Virus record (IMG/VR): IMGVR_UViG_3300042892_002090
Span: 1-45,773 of that record
Strand: one strand, 5' to 3'
DNA length: 45,773 nucleotides
From: a virus
Shown here one piece after another: positions 1,679-11,548 of this stretch. The first letter of the stretch is position 1; each line of letters begins with the position of its first letter. The position numbers and the translations under genes were made by a program. The notes beneath the pieces are model-generated. The model was not told the DNA's origin and ran no database searches. It worked only from the letters and a program-made list of their open reading frames with translations.

Positions 1679-2205
1679 TATATATTATTATCTCTTTGAT
1701 TTATTAATGGTTCAATTGAAGTTTTGAATGTTTCATCGAATTTTGCTAATTTTTCTAATGCCGTTGCAACGTTTTGTTCAAGTTTCAACATATCCGCGTT
1801 AATATAGACGCCACTTTCAGTTCCAGCAATAAAAACAAAATTAATATCTTCATCTGGTAAATAACCATCCAATCTGATTTGATCTTGGTTAATGGTCATC
1901 CCTGGGTCAAACTCCGCAATTTGTGAAACTTGTTGTTTGAAATTATCAATCAAACCTGAAATTGTGGTTTTTTGTGTTTCACTCAATGTCATGTCAGATT
2001 GATCTGTTGATAATAATTTAACATCAACATTGTTAATTACGGTAACATCATTTTTTTGTTCTTGACTTGCGTCATCAGATAATGTAGATTCAAACTCAGC
2101 TACCTCATTAATTGATTGTTTTGATAATTTAGATTCTGTTATAGTCCTAATGGTCTTTAACATATTCTTGGTTACATCATAATCTGTTTTCATTTTCATT
2201 TGCAT
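1678..2205 (-). CDS. Hypothetical protein, 175 residues
   Basis: The start region has three in-frame ATG codons (2205, 2199, 2193), all inside the end of the amidase-like gene, so overlap of 17-29 bases is unavoidable. The N-terminus (about residues 8-45) is helical and basic. The rest is acidic with the pattern LDGYLPDEDINFVFIAGTESGVYINADMLKL, which looks like a small beta-rich domain, followed by helices. There is no signal peptide, membrane segment or known motif. It lies in a run of small genes of unknown role downstream of the amidase-like gene. Confidence 0.65.
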   Translation of the reverse strand: MQMKMKTDYDVTKNMLKTIRTITESKLSKQSINEVAEFESTLSDDASQEQKNDVTVINNVDVKLLSTDQSDMTLSETQKTTISGLIDNFKQQVSQIAEFDPGMTINQDQIRLDGYLPDEDINFVFIAGTESGVYINADMLKLEQNVATALEKLAKFDETFKTSIEPLINQRDNNI

Positions 2206-2800
2206 AATTAAAAAAGACCCCGAAATTAAAAGAAGGGTTTATATCTGTATAAATACTTGAAAAGTTGGATTTACATACAATTCCCTTGAAATTAGATATG
2301 TTTTCTAAATATCCTTGGGATGGTACGGTTTGTTTTGGTATTTCATGTTTATCACATAGGATATTACACAGTTCAGATAGTGAGTTCATTTGAGTCTCAG
2401 TATACTTATCCCAAAAATAGTAGTTTCTCCAATTACGTATATGTGGTTCTGACCTATATGGGTCCCCAATCCAATTATTAAGGACACCAGTAATGGTATT
2501 CTTGTTCAACCACCCCAAGTTCTCAACTGCAATTTTAATCATCCTCTTATCGTTCTGTGAATCATTAAACGTATTAGAACTATAGTTGGTATCAAACAAT
2601 TGATATACACTACCTAATTTTGTAACTATAAAATGTGGGATGTCGTCAAACTTACCATTATTACGATGTCCAATTTTATTAACAAAGTCATCAAATCTTC
2701 TTTGTGTATCGTATAGGAATATTTGAGTTTTTTTAGATTTTCGTTTATTAATAATTAAATTATTATAATCTATCGTTTCTATATCGTGTATTACTAACAT
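2177..2800 (-). CDS. Amidase_2 / peptidoglycan-recognition fold protein, possibly inactive
   Basis: The 207-residue protein follows the N-acetylmuramoyl-L-alanine amidase (Amidase_2) plan. It has IPHFIVTKLGSVYQLFD (residues 54-70, first zinc His56), an AVENLGW strand (91-97), TETQMNSLSELCNIL (134-148, the helix before the second zinc site), and GIVCKSNF then TDINPSF (173-191). Active members usually read GIVGHS at the second site; here Lys177 stands where the zinc-binding His is expected. Asp186 fits the third ligand. It may therefore be a degenerate amidase that binds cell wall, or use another ligand. There is no signal peptide. Its start lies inside the -1 frame extension of the upstream membrane protein (38 bases overlap). 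Confidence 0.6.
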   Translation of the reverse strand: MLVIHDIETIDYNNLIINKRKSKKTQIFLYDTQRRFDDFVNKIGHRNNGKFDDIPHFIVTKLGSVYQLFDTNYSSNTFNDSQNDKRMIKIAVENLGWLNKNTITGVLNNWIGDPYRSEPHIRNWRNYYFWDKYTETQMNSLSELCNILCDKHEIPKQTVPSQGYLENISNFKGIVCKSNFSSIYTDINPSFNFGVFFNYANENENRL

Positions 2801-3015
2801 TTTTTGTAATGAATTTAGGACCTAAATCAGTTAGTGGTGCGTTAAGAGTTATATCCTCATCCGGTATTATAACCTTATTATTTTCCAAATCATATAGTAT
2901 TTGGTTTGGGTTTACGTCGTCTTTTTCCCAATATAAATTATCAGAATCTCGAGATTCTAACGTTAGGGGTTTTTCTTCTGTTGTTGGTGTTTGAAGTTCT
3001 ACTAATTTTTTTTTT
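2763..3015 (-). other. Probable -1 frame extension of the upstream membrane protein
   Basis: The 4429-3002 gene ends in ten A residues (plus strand T run 3006-3015) directly before TAG TAG. If the reading frame slips by -1 on this run, translation continues for 81 codons without a stop to a TAA at 2763-2765. The extension reads KLVELQTPTTEEKPLTL and later NQILYDLENNKVIIPDED, so it is acidic and hydrophilic like the domain before it. It has no ATG of its own. This is either programmed slippage, a natural frameshift, or a homopolymer error in the assembled sequence. The combined protein would have about 555 residues. Confidence 0.6.
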
Positions 3016-4429
3016 CATCATTTTTCTCTAATGATGTATCTTCTTCATTGTCGTAATGTAACCCTTCATTTCCATTCTGACCTATAATGTTCATTCTTTC
3101 CTCATCTTCAGGAATTTGATTAACTTTATAACCGTTCTTTTTGTGTTGTTCGATTGTTACGGATTTTTTATTACTTACAGTAATCGGTTCTTGATTAACT
3201 ATTGATTCAAGATTCGGTATACTAATTTCATCATTTTGGAAAATATTCTCCGTTTCGGGTTCTATAGTGGAAAAATTTCTTTGAATTTCTTCTTCGGTTG
3301 GTTCTTCTTGTAAAATTTTCTCTACTTCTTCATCAGTAAAGAAAGGTTCTTCGTCTTCTAAACCATCCATCAATGTGACATCCCAATCTGAGGTTTCTTC
3401 TTTAATCATTGGACTATCAAATGGTTCGTCATATAAACCTAATTCTTGGTCGTTCTTCATCATCTCCGCTAATAGTTCGCCACGTTTTTCACGTTCAATA
3501 TCTGTCTTCATTTTATAATATTCAGCGGCAGATTTTAAAGTGTCATTTGGTTTTGGTGGATTTAATAAAGTTTCTTCTAACTTTTTTAAATCATTTTCAG
3601 TTAAATGTAATCTTGCAGTTTCATCAACAAAATTTTTTAAATCTTCAGGATTAGATGGTGGTGTCTCTTCGTCTTCTTTTTTAGTCATTACTAATTGGTT
3701 AAATGCAATTACTAATGCGATTGCTAATGGATCAAATACTATTACAATTAAAAATATAAAAAACTTAACAACGTTATTTAAACTCATACCAAATGCCTCG
3801 GCAACAAATCTAAATCCACCAACTTCCCTTTCTAATTCAATGTTATTGTTTTTAATTACGTTAATTGAATCTAATGCAATATTATTTTGTCTTGTTAGTT
3901 CATCAATTCGTTTAGAAATAGAAGTGATTTCTTTATCCGCAGTACGAATCATTTGTGTGACTCTTGCTGTTGATTTATCTTTATCAATTTGTTTGGATAA
4001 ATTTGATTCTTGTGAATTACGAATATTTTGTTGATTACTTAATTGTGTCGTGTAACGAGATATTTCTCCATCATTTTTTGTAATTTGATTTTGAAAAACC
4101 GATATATCTCTTTCAACTTTTTGTAAACCAATGTTTTGTTGTTGGAAAGCGTTTGATAAAAAACCAAAAATACCTGCGGAAGTTATTAACATTAATATAA
4201 TAACTGATATAGTTAAATACCATTTATTAAAACCTTTAATTGTGTCCCACTTTTGTTTTAGATATGTTGCCGTAACTAATTTTGCATATTCTAATGAACC
4301 CGCCATTATCATCACAGATATTGATGCACCTGCAAATAATATACCTAAACCAGTAATTGAAAAATAAGCAGCACAACCCGCAATGATAATTGCCGATATG
4401 CCTACCAAATATTTTAACCATTTATCCAT
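3002..4429 (-). CDS. Multi-span membrane protein with coiled coil and acidic tail
   Basis: The 475-residue protein begins with hydrophobic segments at about 7-25, 27-48 and 73-93. A long polar coiled coil follows (about 100-205, with QNQITKNDGEISRY and repeated Gln/Asn/Ser heptads), then a fourth membrane segment at about 220-248. A long acidic cytoplasmic-type tail completes it. The N-terminal pattern GLGILFAGASISVMIMAGSLEYAKL-like is familiar from membrane proteins of marine myoviruses; their role is unknown to me. The gene starts 3 bases after the sigma factor stop. The frame ends at a double stop immediately after a ten-A run, and the sequence beyond remains coding in the -1 frame (see separate entry). 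Confidence 0.75.
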   Translation of the reverse strand: MDKWLKYLVGISAIIIAGCAAYFSITGLGILFAGASISVMIMAGSLEYAKLVTATYLKQKWDTIKGFNKWYLTISVIILMLITSAGIFGFLSNAFQQQNIGLQKVERDISVFQNQITKNDGEISRYTTQLSNQQNIRNSQESNLSKQIDKDKSTARVTQMIRTADKEITSISKRIDELTRQNNIALDSINVIKNNNIELEREVGGFRFVAEAFGMSLNNVVKFFIFLIVIVFDPLAIALVIAFNQLVMTKKEDEETPPSNPEDLKNFVDETARLHLTENDLKKLEETLLNPPKPNDTLKSAAEYYKMKTDIEREKRGELLAEMMKNDQELGLYDEPFDSPMIKEETSDWDVTLMDGLEDEEPFFTDEEVEKILQEEPTEEEIQRNFSTIEPETENIFQNDEISIPNLESIVNQEPITVSNKKSVTIEQHKKNGYKVNQIPEDEERMNIIGQNGNEGLHYDNEEDTSLEKNDEKKN

Positions 4430-4432
4430 GTC

Positions 4433-5248
4433 CTATAAATAGTTTAATAGACCAAAACTCTCATTTCTTAGTTTCTTAATAGCCTTATCACGTAATTGTC
4501 TTATACGTTCTTTAGTACAACCAAACTCTTCTCCTAAATCTTCTAAGTTCGATTCTACACCTGTTAACCCATAATATCTTTCAATAATTATCTTTTCTCT
4601 ATCATCCAACACACTTAACATTGCAGAAACTTTTTTCTTAATTTCTTCCGGTGAATTAAGAATGGCGTCAGGACTTTCAGCCTCTCTGTTAGGTATGACA
4701 TCAATTAATTGGTCACCGTCCTCGTTAATTTCTTTATATAGACCAATACAGTATGGAAGATTAACCCCAATTGGTGTTTCATCTTCAACATTGTTTATAA
4801 AGAAATTATCTTCTTCACTAATTTCAACTTTCTTTTGTTTTTGAGCATCTTGCACTAAATTTGAAGGTATACGAATTGTTCTACAGTTTTCATTTAGAGA
4901 CGCCATTATTGATTGTCTAACCCACCACACCGCGTATGAAATAAATTTCAAACCAGTCGTTGGGTCAAATCTTTCTGCCGCCTTTATCAAACCAATATTA
5001 CCTTCTGAAATAATATCCAATAAATCCATTCCTTGATTTTGAAACATTTTAGCCACAGATATTACAAATCTTAAATTACCAACAACCAATTCATTATAAA
5101 GTTTTCCTCTGGTTTCTTTATCTGTTTTTTTATTGTTTAATAATTCAAAAATTTCTTCTTGTCTTTGGTGAGATATAACGGGAATTTTTCGTAAATCTTT
5201 GATGTACAATTGAATCTCGTCTGGATTAACTAAAATGGATTTCTTCAT
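4433..5248 (-). CDS. Sigma-70 family RNA polymerase sigma factor
   Basis: I place the start at the ATG at 5248, giving 271 residues, because the 23 codons upstream are non-conserved. Region 1.2-like sequence comes first (DEIQLYIKDLRKIPVIS). Region 2 follows (about residues 54-115): NLRFVISVAKMFQNQG, LLDIISEGNIGLIKAAERFD, then FISYAVWWVRQSI. Region 4 is near the C-terminus: LSVLDDREKIIIERYYGL and a helix-turn-helix with CTKERIRQLRDKAIKKLR. The region 2 wording is close to RpoD of Bacteroidota. Region 3 is reduced. It would recruit host RNA polymerase to phage promoters, functionally like T4 gp55 though of a different sequence type. Confidence 0.93.
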   Translation of the reverse strand: MKKSILVNPDEIQLYIKDLRKIPVISHQRQEEIFELLNNKKTDKETRGKLYNELVVGNLRFVISVAKMFQNQGMDLLDIISEGNIGLIKAAERFDPTTGLKFISYAVWWVRQSIMASLNENCRTIRIPSNLVQDAQKQKKVEISEEDNFFINNVEDETPIGVNLPYCIGLYKEINEDGDQLIDVIPNREAESPDAILNSPEEIKKKVSAMLSVLDDREKIIIERYYGLTGVESNLEDLGEEFGCTKERIRQLRDKAIKKLRNESFGLLNYL

Positions 5249-5297
5249 GTGGTGTAAGTTTAAAATGGATGGATAGTAGTAAGATACGAAATATATC

Positions 5298-5744
5298 TTA
5301 ATTTTCAAAATTGTCAAGGAAGTTTTTTTCTTCTATTGTAAGACTCTCAATTCCAGATTCTTCTATTTTTTCAAGTAATCTGTCTAAATCTAAAGTTTCC
5401 CTTTTTCTGTTTTTCTCATAATCTACCCTAATTATCGTATTATCGATAGTCGGAGTAAAAATTAAATCTTTAATTTGTTGGGGTAGGTGAGCCGTGACCA
5501 TATTTTCTCTTTCAAATATGAAATAAAATTTAATATGTTCATCGATTAATATTGTATATAATTCTCGGTCGACCTCTGTTGGTTTCATTTCGGAATCAAA
5601 TATCACTATGATATTTTCTGAATTTTCAATAATGAATCTAATTGACGTAATAACCTTACTTTCACCAATAACATCGGTACAGAAATACTCAACATCTTCG
5701 TGGTCATCAAACATACCGAAAATAAATAATACGTATGTATTCAT
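5298..5744 (-). CDS. Hypothetical protein, 148 residues
   Basis: A compact alpha/beta protein begins MNTYVLFIFGMFDDHEDVEYF, with alternating strands (IIVIFDSEM, KFYFIFE) and a charged C-terminal helix hairpin (LDLDRLLEKIEESGIESLTIEEKNFLDNF). The helix hairpin is a wording often found at the ends of Bacteroidota proteins. There is no catalytic motif that I can name. It lies between the anchored repeat protein and the sigma factor with a gap of 49 bases to the chosen sigma start. Confidence 0.7.
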   Translation of the reverse strand: MNTYVLFIFGMFDDHEDVEYFCTDVIGESKVITSIRFIIENSENIIVIFDSEMKPTEVDRELYTILIDEHIKFYFIFERENMVTAHLPQQIKDLIFTPTIDNTIIRVDYEKNRKRETLDLDRLLEKIEESGIESLTIEEKNFLDNFEN

Positions 5745-11003: not shown

Positions 11004-11548
11004 TAATTTACATTTGTTATTTCAAAAATTTCTTCCAATACCCATTCACCATTAATTAAATTGTAAGTAAGAACATCTTCTCTTTTAAATGACATCCAAT
11101 TCTCTTTACCATAATTTGAAAAAAATTCAGTATATATTTTTTTAGTAGTATCAATAATGGTATCTGGCTTAATTAATATGAATTGAGTAAAATCAATATT
11201 AGTCCTAACAAACTCGTTTATTTTGTATGAGTTACTATTGTCAACCATTTTTCTATAATGTGTGTACGATTCCTTCCAATGTTTTTCTTTTCTTATTGGA
11301 ATATTGACTGTTGGGAATTCTAAATTAGATTTGTTACAATATTTTAAACTATTCCAAAAATCTCCACTCCATTGTCCGTGTTCAACTTCGACTCTAAAAT
11401 TTGAATCGTCGACACCTATTAAATCAATTAGGTTTTTTTTTGGTGGGGTTGGTTCTAAATTAATATTAAAAAATTCTTTATATAATTTTATAACAAATTC
11501 CCTAACCAATGTGTCGTCGGTATCTTTATGTTTTTCTTTATAATCCAT
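11003..11548 (-). CDS. Conserved phage protein of unknown function, possible nuclease-like fold
   Basis: The 181-residue protein has a conserved-looking core: NLIDLIGVDD (39-48), FRVEVEHGQWSGDFW (51-65), and PTVNIPIRKEKHW (79-91). The Asp42, Glu54-x-Glu56 and Arg86/Lys87 layout could belong to a PD-(D/E)XK-like fold, but the Lys normally next to the acidic pair is not evident. A later block, NEFVRTNIDFTQFILIKPDT, is also motif-like. I have seen this wording in hypothetical proteins of large phages. It lies between the EVPxE-repeat protein and DUF1360 in the recombination module. Confidence 0.7.
   Translation of the reverse strand: MDYKEKHKDTDDTLVREFVIKLYKEFFNINLEPTPPKKNLIDLIGVDDSNFRVEVEHGQWSGDFWNSLKYCNKSNLEFPTVNIPIRKEKHWKESYTHYRKMVDNSNSYKINEFVRTNIDFTQFILIKPDTIIDTTKKIYTEFFSNYGKENWMSFKREDVLTYNLINGEWVLEEIFEITNVN

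Follow-up and report, generated by a model that had tools for sequence, protein, structure and literature searches.

What does a phage gene encode when two stop codons directly follow a long adenine run and the -1 frame stays open for some 80 codons past it, one protein or two? The question is raised by a membrane-protein gene on the minus strand of the 45,773-nucleotide stretch of virus DNA analyzed here (the window; IMG/VR record IMGVR_UViG_3300042892_002090, positions 1 to 45,773). A sequence-only reading of this DNA had proposed that a programmed slip at a run of ten A (A10) yields products with short and long tails, and had named a homopolymer error as the other possibility. Comparison with homologous genes led us to regard the A10 run as probably a conserved programmed slip site, at which RNA polymerase slips and both a short and a long form would be produced.

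The Gene and Its A10 Junction

The 475-aa open reading frame ends, on the minus strand, in AAT GAT GAA AAA AAA AAT TAG TAG, which confirmed that the double stop follows directly on ten A (Table 1). This run is the longest in the window and the only one of at least ten. Past it come 80 open codons in the -1 frame, or 83 if the AAA codons are included, where 81 had been counted before, and a long form carrying this tail would total 555 aa. As the sequence-only reading had described, the -1 frame ends inside the next gene, its TAA at 2765-2763 lying 38 nt into the Amidase_2-like ORF that starts at 2800. The reported acidity of the tail held over most of its length, the last ~15 residues being basic, and the statement that it contains no start codon was nearly, but not literally, right, because ATG and GTG are absent but one TTG is found at codon 43, inside a conserved block.

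The 240-nt tail stayed open in 5 of 20,000 dinucleotide-preserving shuffles, so its openness exceeds chance. The window genes contain fewer long sense A-runs than expected: two of at least nine A were seen versus 7.6 predicted by synonymous shuffling, and one of at least ten versus 3.5. Against this scarcity, the single A10, placed at a stop codon where the -1 frame stays open, stands out. The second long sense run is an A9 at 11433-11441 in a 181-aa gene (11548-11003, minus strand), where either shifted frame meets a stop within 1-3 codons and slippage would truncate the protein at about residue 40. At the 5' side of the membrane gene, the sigma-factor gene ends in TAG with the membrane-gene ATG one codon on in the same frame (4427-4435, minus strand), and readthrough of this TAG would fuse the sigma factor and the membrane protein for 489 codons.

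Table 1. Features around the A10 junction (window coordinates)
Feature	Position	Strand	Remarks
Upstream gene, sigma-70-type factor	4433..5317	-	phrog_351, Sigma70_r2/r4
Frame-0 ORF, 475-aa membrane protein (short form)	3002..4429	-	
Membrane module, residues 1-248	3686..4429	-	AlphaFold2 model; conserved in relatives
TacA-like segment, residues 266-304, NPPKPN motif	3518..3634	-	PF08681 above gathering score
Acidic, mostly disordered linker, residues 305-471	3017..3517	-	Low pLDDT over most
Proposed A10 slip site	3006..3015	-	
Frame-0 stops TAG TAG, directly after the A10 run	2999..3004	-	
-1 frame tail, 80 codons	2766..3005	-	Stop TAA at 2765-2763
Next gene, Amidase_2-like	2177..2800	-	PF01510; first 38 nt overlap the tail

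Other genes of the window encode SbcC/SbcD-like proteins, a primase, a DnaB-like helicase, ribonucleotide reductase, a baseplate subunit and a ClpP-type maturation protease, a gene set suggestive of a large phage of myovirus-like type. Related genes occur on contigs of up to 335 kb, and Flavobacterium phage immuto is among the annotated matches (31% identity).

Conservation of the Run

Homologous loci from uncultivated phages (L-numbers) were fetched from IMG/VR, 67 in a first search and 80 of the 410 relatives counted in a second. Because one contig is often represented by several loci, counts are given as distinct sequences, which came to 134 genes of two membrane-module families, some of them close relatives of each other. 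No relative was found in bacterial and archaeal genome contigs.

A run of A9-A11 lies at the junction, after the membrane module, in 97 of the 134 distinct genes. The A9 cut-off was set by hand and is supported by the histogram of the longest runs, which have at most seven A in 34 genes, eight in 3 and nine to eleven in 97; this split with its trough at eight indicated that run length is bimodal. Across the fetched loci, sense runs of at least nine A number 53 in 105 kb of family genes versus 9 in 423 kb of neighboring ORFs, that is, 5.04 versus 0.21 per 10 kb, or 24 times denser in the family. All three codon phases are represented among the runs. The tail lies in the -1 frame in 59 of the 97 genes, with the frame-0 stop at a median of 1 codon (maximum 14) after the run, and in frame 0 in 37, where slippage would give the short form; a single gene, L079, has it in +1. 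The -1 frames are open for 33-152 codons in intact cases, and the stop at the frame-0 position in relatives may be TAA, TAG or TGA. Closest to the window, A10 is also read in L002, whose gene is 100% identical and comes from a second record of this phage, and in the relatives L003-L007, which are 79% identical. The comparison with homologues suggested by the sequence-only reading found the run to be kept, with the tail in -1 in some and in frame 0 in others, and neither a run of nine or twelve A nor a homologue lacking the extension, the two findings named there as contrary, occurred in the window's lineage. In addition, the gene of a distant homologue, L072 (the 735-kb phage LR756501), contains A9 twice, and the copy near the 3' end is accompanied by a -1 frame of 47 codons.

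Conservation and Frame Exchange of the Tails

The alignment of the window-type tail among relatives centers on LYWEKDDxNPNQVIYDLExNxVIIP; the tail end RNVxNxxRR, although conserved, was not counted toward this conservation, since the start of the amidase gene lies there as well. In diverged -1 pairs, dN/dS of the tail was 0.12-0.37 (for example, 0.125 for L025/L050, 0.147 for L101/L148 and 0.146 for L078/L008), and the tails in diverged relatives are, as judged by sequence comparison, conserved proteins under purifying selection. Between the window and its nearest relatives L003/L005, which are too close, dN/dS does not separate the frames; since that comparison is uninformative, the selection argument rests on the more diverged pairs.

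A second tail type consists of EF-hand-like DxDGDGxxDG repeats with a WINDQNAVNYW end. It lies in frame 0 in most run-bearing members and is reached only by a -1 change in L047, L101-103 and L148. Similarly, the window-type tail is found in frame 0 in L091 and in L109, the latter sharing the window's own gene neighborhood. A membrane-module tree requires about 8 changes to account for the -1 arrangement and 11 to account for every arrangement together. The protein-level conservation of the tail and the relatives with the same kind of tail fused in frame both argue strongly for two products, in support of the proposal that a programmed slip would yield short and long tails.

Protein Architecture and Gene Neighborhood

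In the AlphaFold2 model, the membrane module has four predicted transmembrane helices flanking a long coiled-coil hairpin (residues 67-213), with high confidence for the coiled coil and moderate to low confidence for the remainder. The membrane part matched no PHROG and no informative Pfam family; weak spanin, tape measure and coiled-coil matches were taken as composition-driven. With the two AlphaFold models as queries, fold searches of the PDB produced no match at E < 0.001, and the long-helix matches among the results were taken as generic. The linker varies in length among relatives.

The match to TacA (DUF1778, PF08681) covers profile positions 39-77 of 80, which is the C-terminal half only. 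The TacA-like segment is present in 16 of 25 members, its profile matches KacA/TacA chains in the PDB with E of 0.001-0.01, and in one lineage it lies 9-10 residues before the run. An identity as TacA antitoxin was not adopted, as the N-terminus is a membrane module, not a ribbon-helix-helix, and none of the ten window proteins scanned with Pfam gave a GNAT match that would point to a paired toxin gene. The segment hints at binding of a GNAT-type toxin, which we treat as a lead only.

Parts of the protein appear in different combinations. NPPxPN-type TacA-like segments are common to genes with two unrelated membrane modules. Amidase-anchored relatives have a membrane module (MKNWFSKNFKT...) unrelated to that of the window, but their linker, run and tail are of the kind found there, and A9-A11 was found in 45 of the 52 distinct genes of this family. 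From residue 251 onward, L051/L155 share 81% identity with the window, although their membrane module is the other one. The neighborhood also varies: in the lineage with the EF-hand-like tail (L009, L020, L024 and relatives) neither a sigma factor nor an amidase adjoins the gene, and inspection by eye found an Hsp20-like gene upstream and UV-endonuclease-like and thymidylate-synthase-like genes downstream. Because this lineage has other neighbors, coupling to the amidase is not the general reason for the run.

Proposed Mechanism and Alternatives

We propose that RNA polymerase copying the A10 run would produce some transcripts that gain one A or lose two. Unslipped mRNA would give the 475-aa short form ending at TAG TAG, and mRNA with a net gain of one A would be read into the -1 frame to give the 555-aa long form with its 80-residue tail, so that both products would come from one gene. 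The tail of the long form is expected to be cytoplasmic. Both forms would share the membrane anchor, coiled coil, TacA-like segment and acidic linker, so that in a mixed assembly some of the subunits would be tailed; the simplest role, we infer, is to provide two tail lengths in one membrane assembly, presumably at a set ratio. In amidase-linked phages, the long form would also bring ribosomes to the amidase start and may couple both genes.

The same two products would result if ribosomes shifted to -1 from A AAA AAA on normal mRNA, and this alternative, though unlikely, deserves the most weight among the rivals. A AAA AAA is present in the right register within every run, the tails are in -1 rather than +1 by 59 to 1, the frame-0 stop comes at once after the run, and the window, L003 and L005 show a modest downstream hairpin signal (z -2.6 to -4.0), though ~40-50 nt past the run. 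However, poly-A ribosomal slips usually need stimulatory signals, whereas slippage on long homopolymers is more familiar from polymerases (PMC4256274); bacterial transcription slips on nine-A or nine-T runs (PMC5009743). Across 46 sites we found no conserved Shine-Dalgarno-like motif, only a few scattered matches, and no conserved downstream stem-loop at short spacing (mean z -0.9). Moreover, seven A's suffice for a ribosomal slip, yet runs of eight are nearly absent and runs of 9-11 dominate, and in genes with a frame-0 tail such a slip would mainly waste product. AAG accounts for 0 of 225 Lys codons inside the runs versus 19.5% elsewhere in these genes, which also speaks against the ribosome but is supportive rather than a test, because the sites are related and the absence follows partly from the definition of the runs as A9+. 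Given the lack of a Shine-Dalgarno-like motif and of a conserved downstream stem-loop and the run-length gap at eight, we consider RNA-polymerase slippage likely to be the mechanism in preference to ribosomal -1 frameshifting.

Other explanations dispense with slippage in expression. If replication changed the run length in the DNA, the tail would be switched on or off between phage genomes, and poly-A tracts are known as contingency loci (PMC3711429). The tail frame does differ between lineages, and L079 has A10 where L078 (98.7% identical) and L080 (100% identical) have A11, a difference of one A that is either an assembly error or real run-length variation. Such phase variation is nevertheless improbable: other multi-contig clusters (at least 95% identity) keep the tail frame, as far as assemblies, which are a consensus only, reveal it, and L009/L012 and L024/L115 differ in run length with the frame unchanged. 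A homopolymer error, or a neutrally decayed gene end with no second product, is more improbable still. Homopolymers are error-prone in assemblies, but sequencing error was rejected because the same run and frame relation recurs in dozens of independently assembled, divergent contigs, and the -1 frames, open for so long in the intact cases, are under purifying selection. Least credible of all is that no frame change takes place, the tail being a separate downstream gene or the stop codon being reassigned. The single TTG would suit the former, but it lies mid-way through the conserved block, and ATG and GTG are missing; the latter is suggested by TAG ending only 4 of the 36 window genes, but relatives use all three stops at this position, and TAG read as sense would lengthen frame 0 by only 12 codons.

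Relation to Known Systems and Implications

Polymerase slippage as proposed for the phage gene has counterparts in bacteria. TssM1 of Citrobacter rodentium and TssM3 of Yersinia pseudotuberculosis, both of type VI secretion, are subject to transcriptional frameshifting, with efficiencies of 20-25% for TssM1 and 15-55% in Shigella genes (PMC4256274). Like the phage family, they are inner-membrane proteins with an A11 or A9 run and two length variants, and TssM1 slips to the long form and TssM3 to the short form (PMC4256274), a mirror arrangement that recurs in the phage family. TssM is, however, an unrelated protein, known from two scattered cases versus ~97 distinct phage genes with two membrane modules, and its slippage was measured (PMC4256274), whereas slippage in the phages is proposed from sequence. 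In Thermus thermophilus dnaX (tau/gamma), a poly-A run is likewise present, the long form is in frame 0 and slippage leads to the short form via nearby stops, but this gene encodes a cellular DNA polymerase subunit and has no -1 tail arrangement (PMC5009743). In Shigella spa13/spa32, a C-terminal tail is added by slippage; its end extends into the beginning of the following gene, whose expression is affected (PMC5009743). That system belongs to type III secretion and its coupling was measured, whereas the phages have the overlap only, and only in amidase-linked lineages.

The best-known frame change in phages is that of the tail assembly chaperone, and it is ribosomal. In lambda gpG/gpGT, a ribosomal -1 change occurs in a cytoplasmic tail-assembly protein encoded beside the tape measure gene. 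What it would share with the gene of the window is a -1 change near the 3' end of a phage gene, from which a long minority product arises beside the short one; the window gene, in contrast, encodes a membrane protein and lies between a sigma factor and an amidase. The window protein had no PHROG match to a tail assembly chaperone, and its gene is not next to a tape measure gene. We know of no phage membrane protein described as made in two lengths by poly-A slippage, and no earlier report of such phage slippage was found in searches of the open-access literature.

As a joint reading, which we offer as plausible but still short of probable, the TacA-like segment, the acidic linker, the A9-A11 run and the tail may constitute a modular slippage cassette that has been joined to different membrane modules in a sizable group of uncultivated large phages. 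The run and its two-product output would be under selection, whereas the tail could change between frames 0 and -1; what is conserved would then be the existence of two forms, not a fixed frame. A membrane complex would be assembled from the short and long forms, and it might block GNAT-type toxins or time lysis.

If slippage does occur at these sites, gene callers cut off the tail wherever a phage has the -1 arrangement. The genes would then be a natural experiment on slippage, with ~97 distinct sites, runs of A9-A11, three codon phases and tails in frame 0 or -1, which could show what selection acts on and would make slippage testable beyond a few model bacteria.
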